The notes under the pieces: model-generated
What the model was told of the DNA's origin: nothing
The model's input: only the letters and a program-made list of their open reading frames with translations
Database searches by the model: none
Translations under genes and position numbers: made by a program
Shown here: positions 48,396 through 59,559 of the stretch, in pieces
Numbering within the stretch: the stretch's first letter is position 1
Layout of the letters: each line of letters starts with the position of its first letter
Source: Scytonema millei VB511283
GTDB taxonomy: Bacteria > Cyanobacteriota > Cyanobacteriia > Cyanobacteriales > Chroococcidiopsidaceae
DNA length: 64,000 nt
Assembly: GCF_000817735.3 (NCBI RefSeq)
Contig: NZ_JTJC03000001.1
Span: forward strand, 505,710-569,709
Direction: 5' to 3'

Positions 48396-51300
48396 CTATG
48401 AACTAGGGCAGGAAGTCGGTGTTGTCTTTAAATGACTTGATGATGTGGTATCGCCGCTAGTAAGAATTATCGCGCCGTTGCGATCGTATTGCCAGGATGT
48501 GGCTTCAGTTATGGTTTCTACGGGTGGAGTAGGTGTAGTATTAGTTGCTACTGGGGTAGTTGTTTCTACTGCGGCACGGTTTTGAGTTTCTGGTGTTTGC
48601 AGAGTTGCCCAATCGGTGAGGAGGGCATCAGGACTGAGTTTATCTGCTGGTGCAGGGGGTAAGCCGCCGCGTCCGGCGACGGTGAAGCGGTTTTCGGCTC
48701 CAGATGGGCATCCTGCTGCGACTAAAGAGGAGGCATCGACCAATCCTGTTGGTAGTTCCACAATATCGCGGCTGGGGTCGATATCGGCAGTATTAAAGCT
48801 GACAGTACCACTGAAGGAAGGATTTGTGAGGGAAATTGCTGCTACATCATTACTAGATGAGTTATTTAAGAAGTTGAGAAAGTCCTCTGCTGTGGGTGTA
48901 TCAGTGCCTAACCGAGATTGAAGTGTTTCACCGTCAATTCGGTTTAGTCCAAAAATGCTTTGAGCATTAATTTCGATCGTACCGCCTTTGCCATTAAAAG
49001 CATTAGCAAAAATATCGTTATTACCCTCTTGCTCTCCTTGACCAGCAATAACCAAGGGAGAGTCAATTGTAATGTTGCCACCATTTCCACCTTGTCCCTC
49101 GCTTCCTGCTTCGGTTGTGATATAACTACCTTTGCGTAACCTCACACTTTTACTTGCTTGCAATCGGATATCCCCACCGTCACCTGATTCAGAGCTGGCG
49201 AGGATACCACCGTTATCGAGATTAAGGGTGCGAACGTTTACAATGATGTTCCCTGCATCTCCTGTTCCAAAGTTACTGGCATTCAATCGACTATTATTGC
49301 TAAGAGAGAAAGATCGGGCTTTAATGTCAATTGTACCGCCGTTACCCACTGCCCCAGTTTGAACTGTAGTGAAAACTCCGCTGCTACCACTAGCACTGAA
49401 AGCATCGCGCACGTCAATAATTACCTTGCCACCATTGCCACGTCCACCTGACAGTTTATTCTCATGTCCCTCGATAGCAGCAATAATTTGAGCACCATCA
49501 GTGAGAGAGAGCGATCCTGCTTTGATGTCAATCGTACCGCCATTGCCTTCTGCTTCAGGCGACACAGAGCTAAAAATATAACTACTTGAGAGCAAAATAA
49601 AATTATCTGCTTGCAAGAAGACGTTTCCAGCATCTCCTTCTCCAAAAGTGCCAGCAGTCAATGAAGTATTATTCTCTAATGAGATCGAGCGCGCTTTGAG
49701 CGTGATGTCTCCACCTCGACCTGTGCCTCCTACTTCCAAGCTACTAAATACACTACTTCCGTCAAAAGTAATACGATCGCTAGCAGTAATAGTTACGTTA
49801 CCTGCATTTCCCCGTCCGGCATTACTAGTCTCCAGTAGCGAGCCATTGGTGAAAGAAACTGTTGGTGCTGAGATTTGGATGTCGCTACTATTACCTACTG
49901 CATTAAAATCTGTATTCGTCAAAATCGCACTTGCCGAAAAAGAAATCGAGTCATCCGCTTCGATAGAAACAACTCCTGAGTTGCCTTGTCCATTGGCAAA
50001 AAAACCAGCTTCTATCTGCGTTCCCTCGTTTAAGGACACGGTTTTAGCTTTGATGCGGATATTGCCAACATCTCCCTTTGCTGGTTGTCTCTCCAGACTT
50101 CCTATATTGCTCACAAGCTCGCTGTCTGATAAAGAAAGTGATTGTGCTGTAATAGTTATGTTGCCCGCATTTCCCTGTCCGGCATTACTGGTTTTTAGCA
50201 GAGAGCCATTGGTGAAAGAAACTGTTGGTGCGGAGATTTGGATGTCGCTACTATTACCTACTGCATTAAAATCTGTATTCGTCAAAATCGCACTTGCCGA
50301 AAAAGAAATCGAGTCATCTGCTTCGATAGAGACAATTCCTGAGTTTCCTTGTCCGTTGGCAAAAAAACCAGCTTCTATCTGCGTTCCCTCGTTTAAGGAC
50401 ACGGTTTTAGCTTTGATGCGGATATTGCCAACATCTCCCTTCGCTGGTTGTCTCTCCAGACTTCCTATATTGCTCACAAGCTCGCTGTCTGATAAAGAAA
50501 GTGATTGTGCTGTAATAGTTATGTTACCTGCGTTTCCCTGTCCGGCATTACTAGTTTTTAGCAGAGAGCCATTGGTGAAAGAAACTGTTGGTGCTGAAAT
50601 GAGGATGTCGCTACTATTACCTACCGCATTAAAATCTGTATTCGTCAAAATTTCACTTGCCGAAAAAGAAATCGAGTCATCCGCTTCGATAGAGACAATT
50701 CCTGAGTTTCCTTGTCCGTTGGCAAAAAAACCAGCTGCTATCTGCGTTCCCTCGTTTAAGAGCACAGTTTTAGCTTTGATGCGGATAGTGCCAACATTTC
50801 CCTTCGCTGGATTTCCCTGGGAGCTGCCTACATTACTGAGGAGAAAGCTGTTATTTAAGGAGACAGTATCTTGCGCCCGCACGTCTATGCTACCTGCATT
50901 ACCTTGTCCAAGGGTGGAAGTTGTAAGTCTCGCTCCATTAGTTAATTCTACCGATCGCGCCTTAATAGCGACATTACCACCGTTACCAGTAGCGTTTTCC
51001 CTAACACGGCTGAAAATTGTACTGCTATCTAAGGAGACGCTATCCGCAGCAGTTATATTAACATTGCCTGCATTACCAGTGCCAAAGACGCTGGCAGAAA
51101 TCACACCACTATCAGTTAAGGATAAAGAACCAGTATTAATGTCAATATTGCCACCTTTGCCTGTGCCACCCTCGTCTACATTGTTGAAGACCCCACTAGA
51201 AAACCCTCGCTGGCTTCGTCCGCCAATTGCGATTGTGCCTTGAGCATTAACGTCTATATCTCCTGCTACAGCCCCAACCACTTCTTGATTTTCGCCAATG

Positions 51301-52214
51301 CCAGCAACTAGTTCGCTACCTCCAAATAAATTTAAGTTACGGGTATTAACTGAAATATGACCACCACCTCCAGCACTGACATTAACTATTGAGTCATTGG
51401 TCAGCGATATGTCTCCTAAAGTGAGGTCTGTAGGAAAGCTGAAGCGAAAACCACTGGGATCGGGGTTAATTCCTACCACTCCTGGGGCGGCTACTGCGCC
51501 TAATTCGATTCGTCCGCCTCTAGCAGTTAACCAACCGCCTTCCAGATTTATGCTTCCGCCAATCAACCCCAGGGTTTTTCCTGGTTGTACCTGCAAACCT
51601 ACAACAAAATCGTTGCTGTCAGCAGATCGAGAACGATTGACAATCTCCCCTGCACCAGCACCAAACTGTAAACCCAAGGGAACGCTGACGGTGAGTAACG
51701 GCGCACCTGTACCTGGTGTAGCACTAAACTGCGTTCCATCAGCAAAGTTGATACTGCTTGCTGTCGTCGCAATAAACGAACCACCAACATCCAATCTGGC
51801 ATTCGGACCGAAAATAATCCCGTTGGGATTGAGCAAAAATAAATTAGCTGCTCCGTTGGCTCTAATCAAACCATCAATATCAGATACAGAGCCACCTGTA
51901 ACCCTACTAAGAATATTTTGAATATCTAAATCATTGCTAAAAATAGCTGCTCCGTTGGTCGGAACCGAAAACCGATCGAAACTGTGGAATAAATTACCAC
52001 CCTGCCTAGTTCCACCAGTAATTGTCTGCTCACCGCCACTGATACCACTGACAGCAGAACCAACAGTATTGTCTGGAACAACTTGAGCCAGCGCAGGACT
52101 CCCAAATACAACAGCACTTCCAAATACGTTAGCGAAGCTTAACGAAGTTATCGCACCAAACAACCCTAGCCGCGCGCACCAGCGCCCAGCAACTGAAGAT
52201 ATTTGCAAATACAT
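48396..52214 (-). CDS. Two-partner-secretion exoprotein 2, with 121-aa tandem repeats
   Basis: 1272-aa exoprotein closely related to the first. Signal peptide (MYLQISSVAGRWCARLGLFG...SPALAQ), TPS domain (NLFHSFDRFSVPTNGAAIF, IQNILSRVTGGSVSDIDGL, NLFLLNPNGIIFGPNARL), then a beta-helix. Residues coded by 49795-50883 form three near-identical 121-aa units (TNGSLLKTSNAGQGNAGNIT..., NEGTQIEAGFFANGQGNSG), the most regular part. The C-terminus again carries DIVELPTGLVDASSLVAAGCPSG. A TTG 45 bp upstream is possible. It probably forms a long surface fibre; repeat number may vary between strains. Confidence 0.9.
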   Translation of the reverse strand: MYLQISSVAGRWCARLGLFGAITSLSFANVFGSAVVFGSPALAQVVPDNTVGSAVSGISGGEQTITGGTRQGGNLFHSFDRFSVPTNGAAIFSNDLDIQNILSRVTGGSVSDIDGLIRANGAANLFLLNPNGIIFGPNARLDVGGSFIATTASSINFADGTQFSATPGTGAPLLTVSVPLGLQFGAGAGEIVNRSRSADSNDFVVGLQVQPGKTLGLIGGSINLEGGWLTARGGRIELGAVAAPGVVGINPDPSGFRFSFPTDLTLGDISLTNDSIVNVSAGGGGHISVNTRNLNLFGGSELVAGIGENQEVVGAVAGDIDVNAQGTIAIGGRSQRGFSSGVFNNVDEGGTGKGGNIDINTGSLSLTDSGVISASVFGTGNAGNVNITAADSVSLDSSTIFSRVRENATGNGGNVAIKARSVELTNGARLTTSTLGQGNAGSIDVRAQDTVSLNNSFLLSNVGSSQGNPAKGNVGTIRIKAKTVLLNEGTQIAAGFFANGQGNSGIVSIEADDSISFSASEILTNTDFNAVGNSSDILISAPTVSFTNGSLLKTSNAGQGNAGNITITAQSLSLSDSELVSNIGSLERQPAKGDVGNIRIKAKTVSLNEGTQIEAGFFANGQGNSGIVSIEADDSISFSASAILTNTDFNAVGNSSDIQISAPTVSFTNGSLLKTSNAGQGNAGNITITAQSLSLSDSELVSNIGSLERQPAKGDVGNIRIKAKTVSLNEGTQIEAGFFANGQGNSGVVSIEADDSISFSASAILTNTDFNAVGNSSDIQISAPTVSFTNGSLLETSNAGRGNAGNVTITASDRITFDGSSVFSSLEVGGTGRGGDITLKARSISLENNTSLTAGTFGEGDAGNVFLQADNFILLSSSYIFSSVSPEAEGNGGTIDIKAGSLSLTDGAQIIAAIEGHENKLSGGRGNGGKVIIDVRDAFSASGSSGVFTTVQTGAVGNGGTIDIKARSFSLSNNSRLNASNFGTGDAGNIIVNVRTLNLDNGGILASSESGDGGDIRLQASKSVRLRKGSYITTEAGSEGQGGNGGNITIDSPLVIAGQGEQEGNNDIFANAFNGKGGTIEINAQSIFGLNRIDGETLQSRLGTDTPTAEDFLNFLNNSSSNDVAAISLTNPSFSGTVSFNTADIDPSRDIVELPTGLVDASSLVAAGCPSGAENRFTVAGRGGLPPAPADKLSPDALLTDWATLQTPETQNRAAVETTTPVATNTTPTPPVETITEATSWQYDRNGAIILTSGDTTSSSHLKTTPTSCPSS
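49795..50883. repeat. 363-bp tandem repeat, three copies
   Basis: The same sequence recurs at 49861, 50224 and 50587 (exactly 363 bp apart, 121 codons). The copies near 49.9 and 50.3 kb are almost identical; the third (50.6-50.9 kb) diverges at its far end. It is translated in exoprotein 2. Confidence 0.9.
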
Positions 52215-52604
52215 CTCTGCTATATAAATATTTAAGTTAATACCGATGACAGATGCCAAACCACCAATAACTATAAAATATTCACCGTAATAAAATAAAG
52301 CCCTAAAATCTGGAGAAATTGCGATCGCGCTACTTCCCCATACAACCAGGACAAAAATGTGCGATTCATCACATTTGCCCTTTATTTACACCATCTTCAG
52401 GAAAAAATCCAGACTAATTTGTAGTATTTACAATAAATGAACGAACCGAACTTTCGATAGAGGGAAAGCCGTATTATAAAAATACTTAACTTAATTTTTC
52501 CCTAATTGAAGTGCGATCGCGTCGTTTGCTACTCTCTGGCTTAGTTGAATTTCTATCCAGAAAAGCTAATCGGTATAAAAAATATCTGTCTACGGAGAAC
52601 TGCA
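52215..52604. other. Divergent promoter region of exoprotein 2 and the DUF928 gene
   Basis: AT-rich. It holds a CRP-like palindrome at 52355-52376 and a short inverted repeat GTATT-ATAAA-AATAC near 52471. No gene. Confidence 0.6.
52355..52376. promoter_or_regulatory. CRP/SyCrp1-like binding site
   Basis: 22-bp palindrome AAATGTG-N8-CACATTT. It fits the cAMP-receptor consensus TGTGA-N6-TCACA except for one base (TGTGC-N6-TCACA). It lies about 140 bp from the exoprotein start and 230 bp from the DUF928 start. Confidence 0.55.
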
Positions 52605-53507
52605 ATGAAGATTAAACCGTGGCTGAAGTACGTAATCCCGATCTTGGCAATTGGTTGTTTTGCCCCTGTAGTCCCTACAACGACGCAGGCTGCACCCGCT
52701 AAAGCAGTCCAAAATGCCCAGTCCGATTACGATAACTTCATGCGACAAGGCTATCTTGCCACTGCTCAACGAGACTATGAAACAGCTCTAGTCAATTTTC
52801 GCAAGGCTCTCAACCTCCGGCAAGGAAACCCCTACGCTACCAGAGCAATTAACAACATCAGTAGCTATCTTTCGCAGCGCGGCGAAGCTACAATTTCCTT
52901 CGTACCCCCGGAGTGGGGCGCACCAGGAAACCGAGTTGGTGGTGCAACGCGGGGCTGTTTTAGTGGCAAACAAGCACTCACAGCTTTAGTTCCAAATACT
53001 AATACGGGAACGACGATCGCCGCCCAACCTACCTTATCGTTCTACGTGCCTGCAAATAAAGCCGAACAACTAGAATTAGTCGTACTCAACGATAAACAAA
53101 AGATCCTGCACAAATCTATTGTTGCTTCGCCAAAAACACCAGGGATTGTCAGCATCAACATGGCGAAAATGTCAGGTGCGCCATCTCTAGAGACGGGGAA
53201 AAACTATCAATGGTATTTCTCCATGATTTGCGATCCAAAAGACCGTTCGGCAGACGTAGTTGTAGACGGCTGGATTCAACGAGTTGAAGCCGATCCGATT
53301 CTGCAAAGCGAAATTCAAAAAGCCAAACCGAGCGATCGCGTCTCTTTATATGCGGCAAATGGCATTTGGTACGATACAGTAGCGGCAATGGTGGCAAGCC
53401 GTCAATCGACACCCAATAATTCAACCGTATCGCGAGAATGGTCGGATTTACTCAAATCTGTGGGATTGGGTGCAGTGGCTCAGGCTCCAATTGTATTGCT
53501 GAATTAA
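52605..53507 (+). CDS. DUF928 protein with TPR-like helices, exported
   Basis: 300 aa. Signal peptide (MKIKPWLKYVIPILAIGCFA...QAA). A TPR pair (YDNFMRQGYLATAQRDYETALVNFRKALNLRQGNPYATRAINNI shortened here: GYLATAQRDYETALVNFRKA). Then the DUF928 core: PPEWGAPGNRVGGATRGCF, TIAAQPTLSFYVP and YQWYFSMICDPKDRSADVVVDGWI. DUF928 genes in cyanobacteria commonly accompany CHASE2 kinases and exoproteins; the function is unknown. The frame begins 60 bp earlier, but ATG 52605 follows GGAG with good spacing. It is followed, after heptamer repeats, by a CHASE2 kinase. Confidence 0.88.
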   Translation: MKIKPWLKYVIPILAIGCFAPVVPTTTQAAPAKAVQNAQSDYDNFMRQGYLATAQRDYETALVNFRKALNLRQGNPYATRAINNISSYLSQRGEATISFVPPEWGAPGNRVGGATRGCFSGKQALTALVPNTNTGTTIAAQPTLSFYVPANKAEQLELVVLNDKQKILHKSIVASPKTPGIVSINMAKMSGAPSLETGKNYQWYFSMICDPKDRSADVVVDGWIQRVEADPILQSEIQKAKPSDRVSLYAANGIWYDTVAAMVASRQSTPNNSTVSREWSDLLKSVGLGAVAQAPIVLLN

Positions 53508-53784: not shown

Positions 53785-55917
53785 ATGCGCTTATTATCCA
53801 AAGCTTCTCAATTGAGTCGTCTACGTAAAATTACAGAGGCGATCCCACCCATATTAGTTGCTAGCGCAGCCGTCTGTGGCTTAGTTATTGGCGTGCGTCA
53901 CTTAGGACGACTAGAAGGACTGGAGCTAAACTATTTCGATCGCTTCGTTCAACTGCAACCTGATGAAGGTGCCGATCCGCGCTTGCTGGTGGTTGCCGTC
54001 ACGCAAGACGATATTCAAGCACTGGATCGCTGGCCCGCGTCCGATCGCACTATAGACCAGCTTTTACAAAAACTCAAACAATATCGCCCTCGGATCGTCG
54101 GCTTAGATATTTATCGCGATTTACCCGTAGAACCAGGGAATGTCGAACTGACCACGCGCTTGCAGGTAAACGATAACATTATTGCGGTGTGTAAAGTAGG
54201 AGACGATAAGGGTTTGGGAGTCGCACCACCGACAGTAGTTCCTAAAACTCGTTTGGGATTTAGCGATTTAGTCTTAGACCGAGATGGGGTAGTACGGCGG
54301 GGTTTGCTGTTCATGACCCCAGAAAAAACCTCTAAGTGTCCTGCTACGACCTCCTTTAGCTTGCAACTAGCGCTGAAATACCTCAGCCGACAGGGTGTTC
54401 GAGCGCAACTAACTCCAGATAAGAATTTAAAGATCGGTACAGCAACTTTTCCCGCGATCGCCAATAACAGCAGTGGTTATCAAAATGTTGATGCGAGAGG
54501 ATATCAAGTTTTAATCAATTATCGCTCTCCTACTGCCGTTGCTCGACAGGTCTCGCTCAGTGACGTTCTTTCCGATTCCATTAACTCCTCCTGGGTGGAA
54601 GATAAAATCGTTCTAGTTGGCGTGACTGCCACGGAGATCAAAGATTATTTTTATACACCTTACGACCTCAGCCAGCAGCCGGAAACGAAAGGAAAAATGG
54701 CGGGCGTACTCGTCCACGCGCAGATTTTAAGCCAACTGCTGAGTACGGTATTAGATGGGCGATCGCTATTTTGGTATTGGTCGGAAACGACAGAAATTCT
54801 CTGGATCTGGGTGTGGTCTTTATTAGGTGGGGCGATCGCTTGGTACGTGCGTCCCTCCTGGCTGCTGGGAGTCATTGGGGCAAGTGCTTTATTAGGATTG
54901 GGTAGTATTTGTTTCGTCTTGTTTCTCCAAAAAGGCTGGATTCCCCTCGTTCCTCCAGCACTTGGTTTAGTGGGAACAAGTGGGGCGATCGTGGCTTATC
55001 AAGCCTACTTCAAAGCGCGTCCAAGTGGAGCAAAAAATAATAATTCTGCGCCAGAAGGCTCTTTCTCATCACTCACCACAGCCGCAGGCACTCAAGCAAC
55101 TCGAACCATATTAAAGGAACGATATCAAATCGTGCGCAATATTGGTGCGGGTGGGTTCGGTCATACTTTTCTTGCCGAAGATACTCAACGTCCAGGTAAA
55201 CCCTATTGCGTCGTTAAGCAGTTGATTCCATCCACGGATGAGAGATATATGCAATTGGCGCGGCGCTTGTTTCAATCTGAAGCAGAAGCTTTAGAAACAT
55301 TGGGAAGCTTCGATCGCATTCCTCAATTGCTAGCTTACTTCGAGCAAGATCGACAATTCTATTTAGTAGAAGAATTCATCCAAGGACATCCTTTGAGTGA
55401 AGAATTGGTTCCAGGTAAACGCTTATCTGAAACTGAAGTTGTAGCCCTCTTAAAAGATATTCTACTCGTCCTCGATTTTATTCATCACCGCAGCGTCATT
55501 CATCGAGATATTAAACCCAGTAACATTATTAGAAGACGATCGGATAACAGCTTAGTTTTAGTTGATTTCGGCTCAGTCAAACAATTGCAAACTCAAATCA
55601 CGATGGCGCAGGAAAAATACACTGTGGCGATCGGTACGATGGGATATGCTGCACCAGAACAGTTTTTTGGTAAACCTGTCTTTAGCAGTGACATTTACGC
55701 CCTCGGTACAATTGGCATTCAGGCTGTCACAGGAATTCCTCCAACAGAATTAGAAGAAGATCCCACAACCCATGAAGTGATCTGGCGAAACCACGTCCCC
55801 GCAATTAATGACACGCTAGCGGCTATTTTAAATAAAATGGTGCGTTATTATCCCAGCAATAGATTTCAATCAGCAACCGCAGTTTTGAGAGCTTTGGAAA
55901 GCGTTTGTATATATTAA
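53785..55917 (+). CDS. CHASE2-domain Ser/Thr protein kinase
   Basis: 710-aa transmembrane receptor kinase. One N-terminal span (IPPILVASAAVCGLVIGVRHLG) leads into an extracytoplasmic CHASE2 sensor (about residues 40-325: YFDRFVQLQPDEGADPRLLVVAVTQDDIQALDRWP). Three spans at about 335-410 follow. The cytoplasmic kinase has a G-rich loop GAGGFG (from about 454), catalytic HRD 573-575 (VIHRDIKPSNI), DFG 594-596 and APEQF, all intact. It should sense an external or periplasmic signal and phosphorylate proteins. It lies next to DUF928 and the exoproteins. Confidence 0.92.
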   Translation: MRLLSKASQLSRLRKITEAIPPILVASAAVCGLVIGVRHLGRLEGLELNYFDRFVQLQPDEGADPRLLVVAVTQDDIQALDRWPASDRTIDQLLQKLKQYRPRIVGLDIYRDLPVEPGNVELTTRLQVNDNIIAVCKVGDDKGLGVAPPTVVPKTRLGFSDLVLDRDGVVRRGLLFMTPEKTSKCPATTSFSLQLALKYLSRQGVRAQLTPDKNLKIGTATFPAIANNSSGYQNVDARGYQVLINYRSPTAVARQVSLSDVLSDSINSSWVEDKIVLVGVTATEIKDYFYTPYDLSQQPETKGKMAGVLVHAQILSQLLSTVLDGRSLFWYWSETTEILWIWVWSLLGGAIAWYVRPSWLLGVIGASALLGLGSICFVLFLQKGWIPLVPPALGLVGTSGAIVAYQAYFKARPSGAKNNNSAPEGSFSSLTTAAGTQATRTILKERYQIVRNIGAGGFGHTFLAEDTQRPGKPYCVVKQLIPSTDERYMQLARRLFQSEAEALETLGSFDRIPQLLAYFEQDRQFYLVEEFIQGHPLSEELVPGKRLSETEVVALLKDILLVLDFIHHRSVIHRDIKPSNIIRRRSDNSLVLVDFGSVKQLQTQITMAQEKYTVAIGTMGYAAPEQFFGKPVFSSDIYALGTIGIQAVTGIPPTELEEDPTTHEVIWRNHVPAINDTLAAILNKMVRYYPSNRFQSATAVLRALESVCIY

Positions 55918-56148: not shown

Positions 56149-56358
56149 TTACTGCAATAGTAGCGTTTTGATATCTACATCTAACGCTGCTGCTAGCCGT
56201 GTCAATTCATCTGCATAAGCAGGCGATACGTATGTTAACTCTGGTGTAGCACTTCCTACACCACCAACGATCGCATTTAGATCTGTCTCTTCTAGTTCGC
56301 TCAAATAGTCGAACTTGTCTAATCGATTTAAAAACTCATTCTTTTCCGAAAGATTCAT
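56149..56358 (-). CDS. Double-glycine leader peptide, possible RiPP/bacteriocin-like precursor
   Basis: 69 aa. The leader ends LEETDLNAIVGG (22-33), matching the consensus LSxxELxxIxGG of class-II bacteriocin-like leaders cleaved by C39 peptidase exporters (S to E, E to D). The part after Gly33 is 36 aa, VGSATPELTYVSPAYADELT and then RLAAALDVDIKTLLLQ, with no cysteine. Its end also resembles a small helix-turn-helix fragment, so the core is not a known class. A near-perfect ribosome site GGAGGAG precedes the ATG by 3 bp. No peptidase, cyclase or transporter gene is adjacent. Confidence 0.72.
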   Translation of the reverse strand: MNLSEKNEFLNRLDKFDYLSELEETDLNAIVGGVGSATPELTYVSPAYADELTRLAAALDVDIKTLLLQ

Positions 56359-56565
56359 AACTCCTCCGGTTATTGCATATATTTGAGTTTATGACAATCT
56401 AGTGTTAGTAGTCAATGATTTTTTTTTGAACACAGATGAACACATCTTTCTAGCACGTTTGGTGGTAAGTCAATAAAGCTGCGGCATGGTGCGTAGAAGA
56501 GATTGTACTTATATTCTTCTAACTCCTGACTTGCTGATAACTGATAACTGACAACTGACAACTGA

Positions 56566-59559
56566 TTATTTCGTTTCCATCCAATTTTGTCCGGCGCGGA
56601 CATCAACAACTAAAGGAACGCTAAAATCAACATCTGTACGTTCTAAGGCTGTTTCCATTGTGGTTTTAATTTGCGGTTGCAGTTCTTCCCATTCATTAGG
56701 AGGAATTTCAAATACTAATTCGTCGTGTACTTGTAGTAATAAACGTGCCTGATAGTTGTGTAATAATTCATGCAACCTTACCATCGCAATTTTAATGATA
56801 TCTGCACTAGAACCCTGAATTGGGGCATTAGCAGCCGCCCGTAACAATCCAGCATCGTAAGCGGATAGTCCTTTAATACTATCTAAATCGATTTCTTCTG
56901 GTTTTGCATTTAATAATTTTCGCAGGCGATCGCTGGTAAAATTAAAGTAGCGCCTGCGTCCTAAAATTGTCTCTACATACTCTTTGGAAATTGCATCTTT
57001 TTGAATCCCTTGTAAGTAGGCGAATACTTTCGGATATGTTTGGTTAAATTTCTCAATAAATATCTTACCCTCTGTGGCTTTCATGCCTGTTTCTCGCGCA
57101 AATCTCTGCGCACCCATACCGTAAATCACACCGAAATTAATAATTTTACCTAAACGGCGCTGTTCTGAGGTGACAGTCTCTTGTTCAAACAACAATTTCG
57201 CCGTGACTGTATGAATGTCTTCGTTATTTTGGTAAGCCGAAACTAACACAGGTTCCTGTGTCAAATGCGCTAAAATTCTCAATTCAATTTGAGAATAATC
57301 TGCTGCTACCATTAACCAACCTGATTCAGGTAGAAAAGCTTTGCGAATTTGCCGACTGAACGCCGTCCGAATTGGGATATTTTGTAAGTTGGGATTAGAA
57401 GAAGACAATCGCCCTGTCGATGTAGCAGTTTGATTGAAATCTGTATGGACTCGGTGAGTATCTGGACGTACCAAAGCTGGCAAAGCATCGACATAAGTAG
57501 ATTTTAGCTTTGCCAAAGTGCGATATTCTAAAATTGCGTCTACAACTGGATGATCTCCTTGTAATTTTTCTAGCGTTGCTGCGTCAGTTGAATAACCAGT
57601 TTGAATTTTACGTGACTTTCTCCGATCTAATTGCAACTTGTCGAATAAGAGTTCGCTGAGTTTTTTAGGAGAACCTAAATTAAATTTCTCACCAGCTACA
57701 GCATAGACTTTTTCTTCTAATCGAGCTAAATCTACTTCGAGTTGTTTAGAAAATTCATGCAGATAATTACTATCAATTCTAATTCCCGTGTATTCCATTT
57801 CTGCCAACACTGGTTCTAAAGGTTGTTCTACCTCCAGTAACAGCTTGTGCATCATCGGAATTTTATTGAGTTCTGCTCGTAATTTCGCCACTAATTGATA
57901 CGTGACATAAACGTCCATGCCACAGTAATCGGCGACACTAGAAATATCAATATCAGCAATAGTCTGACCTTTAGGAACTAATTCTGAATAACTGACAGTA
58001 TCTAATTTTAAATAGCGATCGGCAAGTACGCCTAAATTGCGTGTCACATCTGAATCTGGATTCAAGACATAACTTGCTAACAACGGATCGAAAACAACTC
58101 CAGCTAGTTGAATTCCTTGACAACGCAGAACTAAGCGATCGAATTTAGCATTTTGTAAAGCTTTCGGATAGCGATCGCTCTCTAAAATTGGACGTAGTTG
58201 TTCTAAAACTGTTGCCTTATCTAAATTCTTACCATCTCGATGACTGACTGGGATATATGCCATGTCATCTAATGCATTTCCCCAACAGCAGCCAATTCCA
58301 ACTAATTCTGCATCCCGTGGTTCTAGATCTGTCGTTTCTGTATCCCAAGCCACAGGATTAGTTGCATCAGTATATTTTTGCAACCTCTTAACTAATTCTG
58401 TCAATTTAGCAGGAGTATCGATAATTTGTGGTTGAATTGGCGACTGCGATTGTTGCTGCGCCACCTCCGTATCTTCTGCACTGAAAAACCAAAGTTCTTC
58501 GCTTTCGTATTCTGGTTCTTGGATGCGGGAGTCGGGAGAATCGTCTGTTTCGACTTTTGACTTTTGACTTTTAACTTTTGACTTTTCTTCCACTTCGCCG
58601 CCAAATTGCTGCTGAAGTTGGTTGACTTTTCCCAAGAAAGTTCTAAATTCTAACTTTTCTAAAATGGGTTCGAGGATGGTGCGATCGAATCCTTTGAGTT
58701 TGCAGTTTTCCAACTCAACTTCTAGCGGGACATCTAAGACAATTTGCGCTAAGTGACGGGAGTGATAAGCTGCTTCTTTACCTTCTTCTAACTTCTTTTT
58801 AGTAGCACCTTTAATTTGATCGATCGAAGCGTAAATATTATCTAAATTGTTATAAGTACTGAGGAGTTGTACCGCAGTTTTTTCCCCGATTCCCCTCACA
58901 CCGGGAATGTTATCAGATGTATCCCCGCACAAAGCTTTAAAATCAACAACTTGTGATGGTAAAACACCCATTTTCTCTCGTACTTGTTCTACACTAAATT
59001 CAGCCGTACCAGTGTTATTGCGCTGAATAAAAGCCGTACTGAGATACAAGACGCTAATTGCTTTTTCGGGATCGACAAGTTGAAATAAATCGCGATCGCC
59101 TGTCAAAATCTTTACCTGATACCCGGCTTCACTCGCCCGTAAAGCCAGAGTCCCTAATATATCATCCGCTTCAAACCCAGGCGCGGTCAAGACCTCGACC
59201 GCAAGTCCTGCGAGTAATTCATGCAAATTCTTCAGATCGGGGACGAAATCTTCTGGTGTCCCTGGACGATCTGCTTTGTAGGTGTCATCGGCTTCGTGGC
59301 GAAATGTCGGTAAACCCAGATCGAAGGCGATCGCCATTGCTTCTGGCTTCTGAGTAGCCATCACTTCTAGCAATGATTTCAAGAAGCCAAAACAAACACT
59401 CGTTGGAATACCCGTTTTCGTCCGCAGTCCACCATCTCGTCCCTTAGCAAAGGCAAAATAAGAACGGAAAGCTAAAGAATGCCCATCTACTAGGATAAAT
59501 GTAGGGTGCTGTGGTGCGGTACTGTTAGGAGGGGTAGAATCGGATGCAGCTGGAGTCAT
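56566..59559 (-). CDS. polA: DNA polymerase I
   Basis: 997-aa PolA with all three domains. 5'-3' exonuclease: ILVDGHSLAFRSYFAF, DDTYKADRPGTP and GDTSDNIPGVRGIGEKTA. Proofreading 3'-5' exonuclease: AWDTETTDLEPRD with DxE, and ADYCGMDVYVTYQL, so proofreading residues are retained. Polymerase: DYSQIELRILAHL, RRLGKIINFGVIYGMGAQRFA and VHDELVFEIP. It is about 70 residues longer than the E. coli enzyme. Part of the surplus is a Lys/Ser-rich linker (KSKVKSQKSKVETDDS) encoded by heptamer repeats between the two exonucleases. It fills Okazaki and repair gaps. Confidence 0.96.
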   Translation of the reverse strand: MTPAASDSTPPNSTAPQHPTFILVDGHSLAFRSYFAFAKGRDGGLRTKTGIPTSVCFGFLKSLLEVMATQKPEAMAIAFDLGLPTFRHEADDTYKADRPGTPEDFVPDLKNLHELLAGLAVEVLTAPGFEADDILGTLALRASEAGYQVKILTGDRDLFQLVDPEKAISVLYLSTAFIQRNNTGTAEFSVEQVREKMGVLPSQVVDFKALCGDTSDNIPGVRGIGEKTAVQLLSTYNNLDNIYASIDQIKGATKKKLEEGKEAAYHSRHLAQIVLDVPLEVELENCKLKGFDRTILEPILEKLEFRTFLGKVNQLQQQFGGEVEEKSKVKSQKSKVETDDSPDSRIQEPEYESEELWFFSAEDTEVAQQQSQSPIQPQIIDTPAKLTELVKRLQKYTDATNPVAWDTETTDLEPRDAELVGIGCCWGNALDDMAYIPVSHRDGKNLDKATVLEQLRPILESDRYPKALQNAKFDRLVLRCQGIQLAGVVFDPLLASYVLNPDSDVTRNLGVLADRYLKLDTVSYSELVPKGQTIADIDISSVADYCGMDVYVTYQLVAKLRAELNKIPMMHKLLLEVEQPLEPVLAEMEYTGIRIDSNYLHEFSKQLEVDLARLEEKVYAVAGEKFNLGSPKKLSELLFDKLQLDRRKSRKIQTGYSTDAATLEKLQGDHPVVDAILEYRTLAKLKSTYVDALPALVRPDTHRVHTDFNQTATSTGRLSSSNPNLQNIPIRTAFSRQIRKAFLPESGWLMVAADYSQIELRILAHLTQEPVLVSAYQNNEDIHTVTAKLLFEQETVTSEQRRLGKIINFGVIYGMGAQRFARETGMKATEGKIFIEKFNQTYPKVFAYLQGIQKDAISKEYVETILGRRRYFNFTSDRLRKLLNAKPEEIDLDSIKGLSAYDAGLLRAAANAPIQGSSADIIKIAMVRLHELLHNYQARLLLQVHDELVFEIPPNEWEELQPQIKTTMETALERTDVDFSVPLVVDVRAGQNWMETK
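58551..58587. repeat. TTGACTT heptamer repeat inside polA
   Basis: CTTTTGA/CTTTTAA units in coding sequence, read on the polA strand as alternating Lys/Ser/Gln/Val. The same unit encodes the SelD linker at 31.9 kb. Confidence 0.88.

Follow-up and report, generated by a model that had tools for sequence, protein, structure and literature searches.

How is a small gene to be understood that carries the leader of an exported peptide, yet stands alone between a DNA polymerase gene and a protein kinase gene? The question is raised by a short reading frame of Scytonema millei VB511283 (Table 1), situated within the stretch of 64,000 nucleotides that was analysed as a whole (hereafter, the window). 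An earlier note, made from the letters of the window, had read the frame as an orphan double-glycine (GG) leader peptide whose maturation genes lie elsewhere. In the following, its own genome (G000) is set beside two other genomes of the genus (G001 and G002). The account defended here, which we consider probable, is that the gene encodes an orphan GG-leader precursor whose core leaves the cell, probably in unmodified form, through a C39 transporter with its gene at another place in the genome, and acts outside.

Table 1. Features of the locus, in positions of the window
Feature	Position	Strand	Basis
GG-leader precursor gene, 69 aa, ATG to TAA	56149..56358	-	open reading frame; orthologues in 2/2 other genomes of the genus
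Leader, residues 1-33, ending LEETDLNAIVGG	56260..56358	-	32/33 residues identical in three genomes
Core, residues 34-69, 36 aa, without Cys, net charge -3	56152..56259	-	9/36 residues changed against G001, dN/dS 0.43
Shine-Dalgarno region AACCGGAGGAGTT, directly before the ATG	56359..56371	-	identical in all three genomes
Promoter-like TTGACT-18-TAAACT	56386..56415	-	scan; TTGACW-18-TARACT conserved in the three-genome alignment
CHASE2 and Ser/Thr protein kinase, 710 aa, convergent neighbour	53785..55917	+	Pfam PF05226, PF00069
DNA polymerase I (polA), upstream neighbour	56566..59559	-	Pfam PF00476

The two glycines occupy residues 32-33, with Leu at -12, Asp at -8, Leu at -7, Ile at -4 and Gly at -2 and -1, and the core is predicted to begin at Val34 (VGSATPELTYVSPAYADELTR). 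The GG leader announced by the earlier note is thus found in the frame, its GG is kept in both orthologues, and the 36-aa core is free of Cys as the note had said. The leader matches the consensus for C39 substrates, Leu(-12)-X3-Glu(-8)-Leu(-7), as given in the consulted portion of the LahT work (PMC6363468). Position -8 is Asp in G000 and Glu in G001 and G002, and the peptide shows the sequence traits of a double-glycine (C39/PCAT) precursor: shortness, Leu at -12, Glu or Asp at -8, Leu at -7, a hydrophobic residue at -4 and GG. The motif is not a product of chance: L...[DE][LM]..[IVALM].GG fits only the 69-aa peptide among the 309 window ORFs of 40-150 aa, has no match in 200 residue-shuffles of all 309, and, when this one peptide is shuffled, arises in 0.022% of cases. 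The shorter [LIVMF]..[LIVMF].GG is commonplace (2 window ORFs vs 2.79 expected by shuffling). Among curated families, the NCBIfam and Pfam matches of the three orthologues all stay under cut-off. Specifically, bacteriocin_sig gives the ORF 13.6 bits (cut-off 15.7) and ranks it second among the three places found genome-wide at E<=10, ComC is the sole Pfam match of the peptide at E<=10 (E 0.011, under cut-off), and lantibiotic and bacteriocin leader models yield only sub-threshold matches to the orthologues. The CTB family bacteriocin model NF038167 is absent from the NCBIfam models matching the peptide at E<=10, the ORF is absent from the seven places of the genome that match the Nif11 leader model TIGR03798 at E<=1, and no second copy of the peptide occurs in its own genome at E<=10.

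The ORF is a real gene, because both other genomes of the genus carry the peptide at the same place. The orthologues are 86% identical to the peptide of G000, and the order kinase, peptide, polA is conserved in G001 and G002, with a gap from polA to the ATG of 92 bp in G002, 154 bp in G001 and 207 bp in G000. The strong ribosome site reported earlier is present as a GGAGG 4 bases upstream of the ATG (AACCGGAGGAGTTATG), and the site is the same in the three genomes. The promoter scan found 4 sites vs 1.9 +/- 1.5 in shuffles and is therefore weak alone; in the three-genome alignment, the region 5' of the promoter-like block varies in length and sequence.

The distribution of the peptide is narrow. 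Matches were obtained in 3 of 100 genomes (its own and 99 relatives), namely G000, G001 and G002, and a profile of the three orthologues found no further full-length match in 388 genomes of the order. In the family, polA was found in 17/19 genomes, and in the 14 polA-bearing genomes outside the genus no such peptide turned up when ORFs of 45 aa or more were read over the 1,497 bases that follow polA. Plasmid and phage collections hold no relative at E<=1, PHROGs no family at E<=10 and PADLOC none at E<=1. A match in Novosphingobium was rejected as fortuitous, for it covers 22 residues of a 789-aa ORF (L008) that we take to encode a transketolase-like enzyme.

Leader and core have evolved differently. 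Between G000 and G001 the whole gene has dN 0.074 and dS 0.29, the leader dN 0.013 and dS 0.24 (dN/dS 0.05, and 0.05-0.07 across the comparisons with G000), and the core dN 0.14 and dS 0.33; counted by codon position, the leader has 0/0/5 substitutions and the core 6/4/8. The single residue change among the 33 of the leader (D26 to E, at position -8, which equals the consensus Glu) compares with the nine in the core at Fisher p 0.014, and the dN of the core compares with values of 0.015 in the kinase and 0.020 in the C-terminus of polA. The close pair G001-G002 differs by 3 silent changes in the leader and by 2 replacement and 0 silent changes in the core, numbers too small for judging selection. 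Such a contrast fits a leader that a shared partner constrains, next to a core that can change more freely. The earlier note had asked how well the leader is conserved across relatives, and the answer is that the three genomes have all but one of its residues in common. Neither of the observations that the note would have counted against itself (homologues lacking the GG, or conservation of the whole protein as a cytosolic DNA-binding protein) was made: the orthologues keep the GG, and conservation is highest in the leader and not in a DNA-binding segment.

The same data bear on the idea that the product is a cytosolic regulatory mini-protein with a small helix-turn-helix (HTH) and an accidental GG. 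An AlphaFold2 model places helices at residues 46-59 and 63-68, as such a protein would have, but its mean pLDDT of 53.6 is too low for use and no HTH family matches at E<=10 in Pfam or NCBIfam, so that the HTH segment which the earlier note had seen at the end of the core finds no support. Since, moreover, the block with the GG is the best conserved and its motif is not chance, a regulator of this kind is very improbable.

An exported precursor needs an exporter, and none adjoins the gene: the neighbours are polA and the CHASE2 kinase, with no transport, modification or immunity-like gene beside the peptide and no long-type exporter genes near it in the locus examined. As the note had supposed, the machinery would be encoded elsewhere, and the genome search that it had proposed returned C39-ABC exporters as well as further GG-leader peptides. 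Specifically, the genome has 4 C39 matches, of which 3 (C4, C17 and C8) retain the catalytic Cys. In these three the C39 domain is N-terminal in frames of 725-743 aa, the short type, the domains having been scanned for C17 only. Beside the exporters lie 12 GG-leader ORFs, 4 at C4 and 8 at C17, and NF038167 scores 4 of the 6 scanned C4/C17 ORFs over cut-off and 2 under. In the two short-type C39 exporter loci of this genome, L011 (5651-8310 and 12030-12350) and L010 (7102-8230 and 11919-12245), these GG ORFs (8 and 4) form arrays with several near-identical CTB-family copies. Each sister genome has relatives of C4 and of C17 at 95-98%, and C8 has a relative of 97% in G002 and none above 62% among the G001 matches. 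No GG ORF with a credible leader was found in the 20 kb around C8 or in the region read at C3; C8 itself (L009:7803-9947) is a C39 exporter with an intact Cys, and the genome has in it an orphan exporter beside the orphan peptide encoded elsewhere. A microviridin-type precursor lies at G000:C1:84366-84404 (L022:1351-1617, minus strand), over cut-off for PF12559 and NF033738, beside a 329-aa ORF that presumably encodes an ATP-grasp ligase.

The fourth match, C3 (L012:7806-10739), is a long-type transporter with a cNMP-binding domain, in whose C39 domain Ile replaces the Cys and Leu the His; its sister copies (97-98%) likewise are without the catalytic Cys. By its residues C3 would be a conserved dead peptidase domain, with a role perhaps in substrate binding. 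HetC, a C39 exporter with a cyclic-nucleotide-binding domain, has been shown to have protease activity (PMC10986499, in the part consulted). An intact long-type exporter is present in G001 and G002, with GG peptides about 6-7 kb off, and none is among the four C39 matches of G000. A long-type exporter of G001 (L114:11621-14829) is split into two frames that overlap, which looks like a break; two GG peptides whose leaders are of the HetP type lie some kb away. Because no intact long-type exporter was found in G000, C4, C17 or C8 would have to serve there if the peptide is exported.

The absence of an intact long-type exporter among the four matches is also what would be seen if the peptide were a relic of such a system, still made but no longer exported, its core drifting, and the fairly high dN/dS of the core agrees with this. 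A relic, however, would decay throughout, whereas the ORF is intact, as are the GG, the ribosome site and the promoter-like block, and strong constraint on the leader shows in the comparisons with G000; we regard a relic as unlikely.

Which class of exporter the leader resembles was approached through its relatives. A search with the leader profile hit 17/388 genomes including its own, and of the other 16 loci L148 was read. The three-orthologue profile hit 18/388 genomes at E<=0.1, including the three of the genus. Among the 16 loci that it gave besides the orthologues, 11 were read, leaving L027-L030 and L033, and a GG-leader ORF was present in five of these 11 (L025, L032, L034, L035 and L038) and absent in six (L026, L031, L036, L037, L039 and L040). 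The three-orthologue profile retrieved a peptide of G358 (leader DYIDELHNSEINHIIGG, E 1.8e-4), which is followed by three more GG peptides; about 4.7-7 kb from it lie genes that are presumably SurA-like and HlyD-like, judging by size and order, together with an ABC exporter of 1036 aa whose C39 Cys is intact. The leader profile retrieved four GG peptides in G052, including SYLQDLSDNEVNAIHGG, situated 0.7-7 kb from a gene set similar to that of G358, with the exporter Cys intact. Over the last 17 leader residues, ungapped, 8 are common with the G358 leader, 8, 7, 7 and 7 with those of G052 and 16 with G001, against 4 and 3 with two CTB leaders, 5 with the microviridin leader and 6 with the GG peptide lying downstream of C4, all in its own genome. 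BLOSUM scores of the leader are 31 vs the C4-linked peptide and 34-52 vs the five G358/G052 leaders, which came from the profile search, so that the comparison is one made after selection; it also holds locus L046 of genome G254. Judged by these residues the leader would lean towards long-type clusters, a soft link. Because the C4-linked peptide falls only slightly behind in a comparison of this post-selection kind, the C4 exporter may be taken as a fair candidate.

Among described systems, a close likeness is to be sought in cyanobacterial C39 clusters, for which the available text of Wang et al. 2011 (PMC3140520) gives 145 clusters and 290 precursors, with short- and long-type C39 exporters, SurA and HlyD, groups I, II and VI combining the long type with SurA. 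The precursors of the long-type clusters described there appear similar in the leader form YLxxLxxxE(L/V/I)NxIxGG, nearest in G358 and G052; those precursors have their exporter 0.7-7 kb off, whereas the present peptide is alone between polA and the kinase, and the cores differ. The CTB family bacteriocins of the same genome share a GG leader, a small core and a C39 exporter, but have another leader type (ELFVELSDEQQQLVAGG). By description, the peptide is also comparable to EbfG1-4 and PteB of Synechococcus elongatus, small GG-motif proteins and the C39 transporter that EbfG secretion needs. In the part of Parnasa et al. 2016 consulted (PMC4997328), biofilm requires the C39 Cys of PteB and also four small proteins of the GG kind, these proteins are found outside cells, cut after GG or GA, and their mature parts are stated to have no relatives in other cyanobacteria; EbfG1-3 form amyloid, most clearly EbfG2 (PMC9981879, likewise in part). 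Unlike the present gene, ebfG1-4 form one transcript adjoining pteB and have a biofilm role. The literature searches, in which sequences cannot be queried, gave no listing that names the peptide.

A further likeness was sought with peptides of the HetP type, whose leader motif is given as KIXDLXYLEX10GG in the available text of PMC3140520. A profile of two of them (G297 and G365) retrieved the gene of G000 at E 0.0035 and that of G002 at 0.032 and missed that of G001 at E<=0.1; hhalign gave a probability of 72% for the GG peptide vs the two, and in the reverse direction the three-orthologue profile retrieved L032 at E 0.0089. A wider profile of 21 HetP-type peptides missed the gene of G000 at E<=1 and found only that of G002, at 0.29. 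Unlike the GG peptide, the HetP-type peptides have a shorter leader and an Ala/Thr-rich core of about 80 aa. In the same three-orthologue search, eight loci with one and the same ORF stretch (three of them read: L026, L031 and L040) beat the score of L032, the best at 7.3e-4, and this stretch presumably belongs to an alpha/beta hydrolase. A core match of the size of L032's can thus be chance, since these stretches score better, and core homology with the G297/G365 peptides appears doubtful. Loci L041-L070 (alignment A3), from the search with the two-peptide profile, hold proteins of about 100 aa. Their leader reads DLxYLE...IxGG, and their core, Ala/Thr-rich and alternating, may perhaps form a beta-solenoid or fibre; six were scanned and none passed a Pfam or NCBIfam cut-off. 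A3 comprises 21 of these 30 loci, with L032 and L035 representing L041 and L042, and omits L048, L049, L051 and L065 by choice, L053, L058 and L067, which gave no ORF, L066, which showed none of this kind, and L068, which is the gene under study.

The properties of the core limit what the product may do. Its net charge is -3 in G000 and -6 in the sisters, its pI is about 4.1, it has neither Cys nor Trp, and its helical moment is moderate (0.41) in G000 and low (0.28-0.29) in the sisters. The acidity and the helical moment speak against a cationic antimicrobial or pore former. GG leaders are typical of bacteriocins, and a killer or competition peptide whose core diversifies as target and immunity co-evolve would account for the conserved leader, the faster core and the sub-threshold lantibiotic and bacteriocin leader matches; set against the composition of the core and the lack of an adjoining immunity-like gene, this role has a low probability. 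The earlier note had proposed a RiPP or secreted peptide: the GG leader agrees with secretion, whereas the RiPP part finds no counterpart at the locus, where no modification enzyme adjoins and the core has no Cys.

The kinase deserves separate consideration. The proximity to a sensor kinase remarked in the note is real, as a CHASE2 and protein kinase gene adjoins the peptide, and it is suggestive only. Three genomes of the family that yielded no match to the peptide nevertheless have full-length relatives of the kinase, at 53-55%; an obligate pair was rejected on this ground, and a dedicated peptide-kinase pair is unsupported. Elsewhere in the window, the large protein encoded at 48396-52259 contains internal repeats as well as a TPS secretion domain, and a DUF928 protein lies close to it at 52545-53507. 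A more elaborate history can be imagined, in which a genus-specific peptide left a long-type C39 cluster but retained its leader, acquired its own promoter and a fixed home between polA and the kinase, came to use a foreign short-type exporter and turned its fast core into a lineage-specific signal, possibly read by the CHASE2 kinase; we regard it as highly speculative and improbable.

The reading preferred here, an orphan precursor exported by a C39 transporter encoded at a distance, would operate as follows. The 33-aa leader would form a short helix that docks through Leu-12, Leu-7 and Ile-4 on the C39 domain of the ABC exporter; the exporter, presumably one of the intact C4, C17 or C8, would cut after Gly33; and the acidic core of 36 aa would pass through an HlyD/outer-membrane channel to the outside. 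There, unmodified, it would most likely serve as a matrix/biofilm or signal peptide and not as a cationic antibiotic.

The gene is of a fairly ordinary kind. The mining of bacteriocins and RiPPs is often cluster-based, and orphan GG peptides far from exporters are easily overlooked. Moreover, a small gene that is clearly under selection, in a genome with few candidate exporters, would lend itself to a clean test of whether C39 exporters of the short type take a long-type-like leader. Lastly, the peptide is an added candidate for the still short list of peptides secreted by cyanobacteria that possibly act in biofilm formation or cell-cell signalling.
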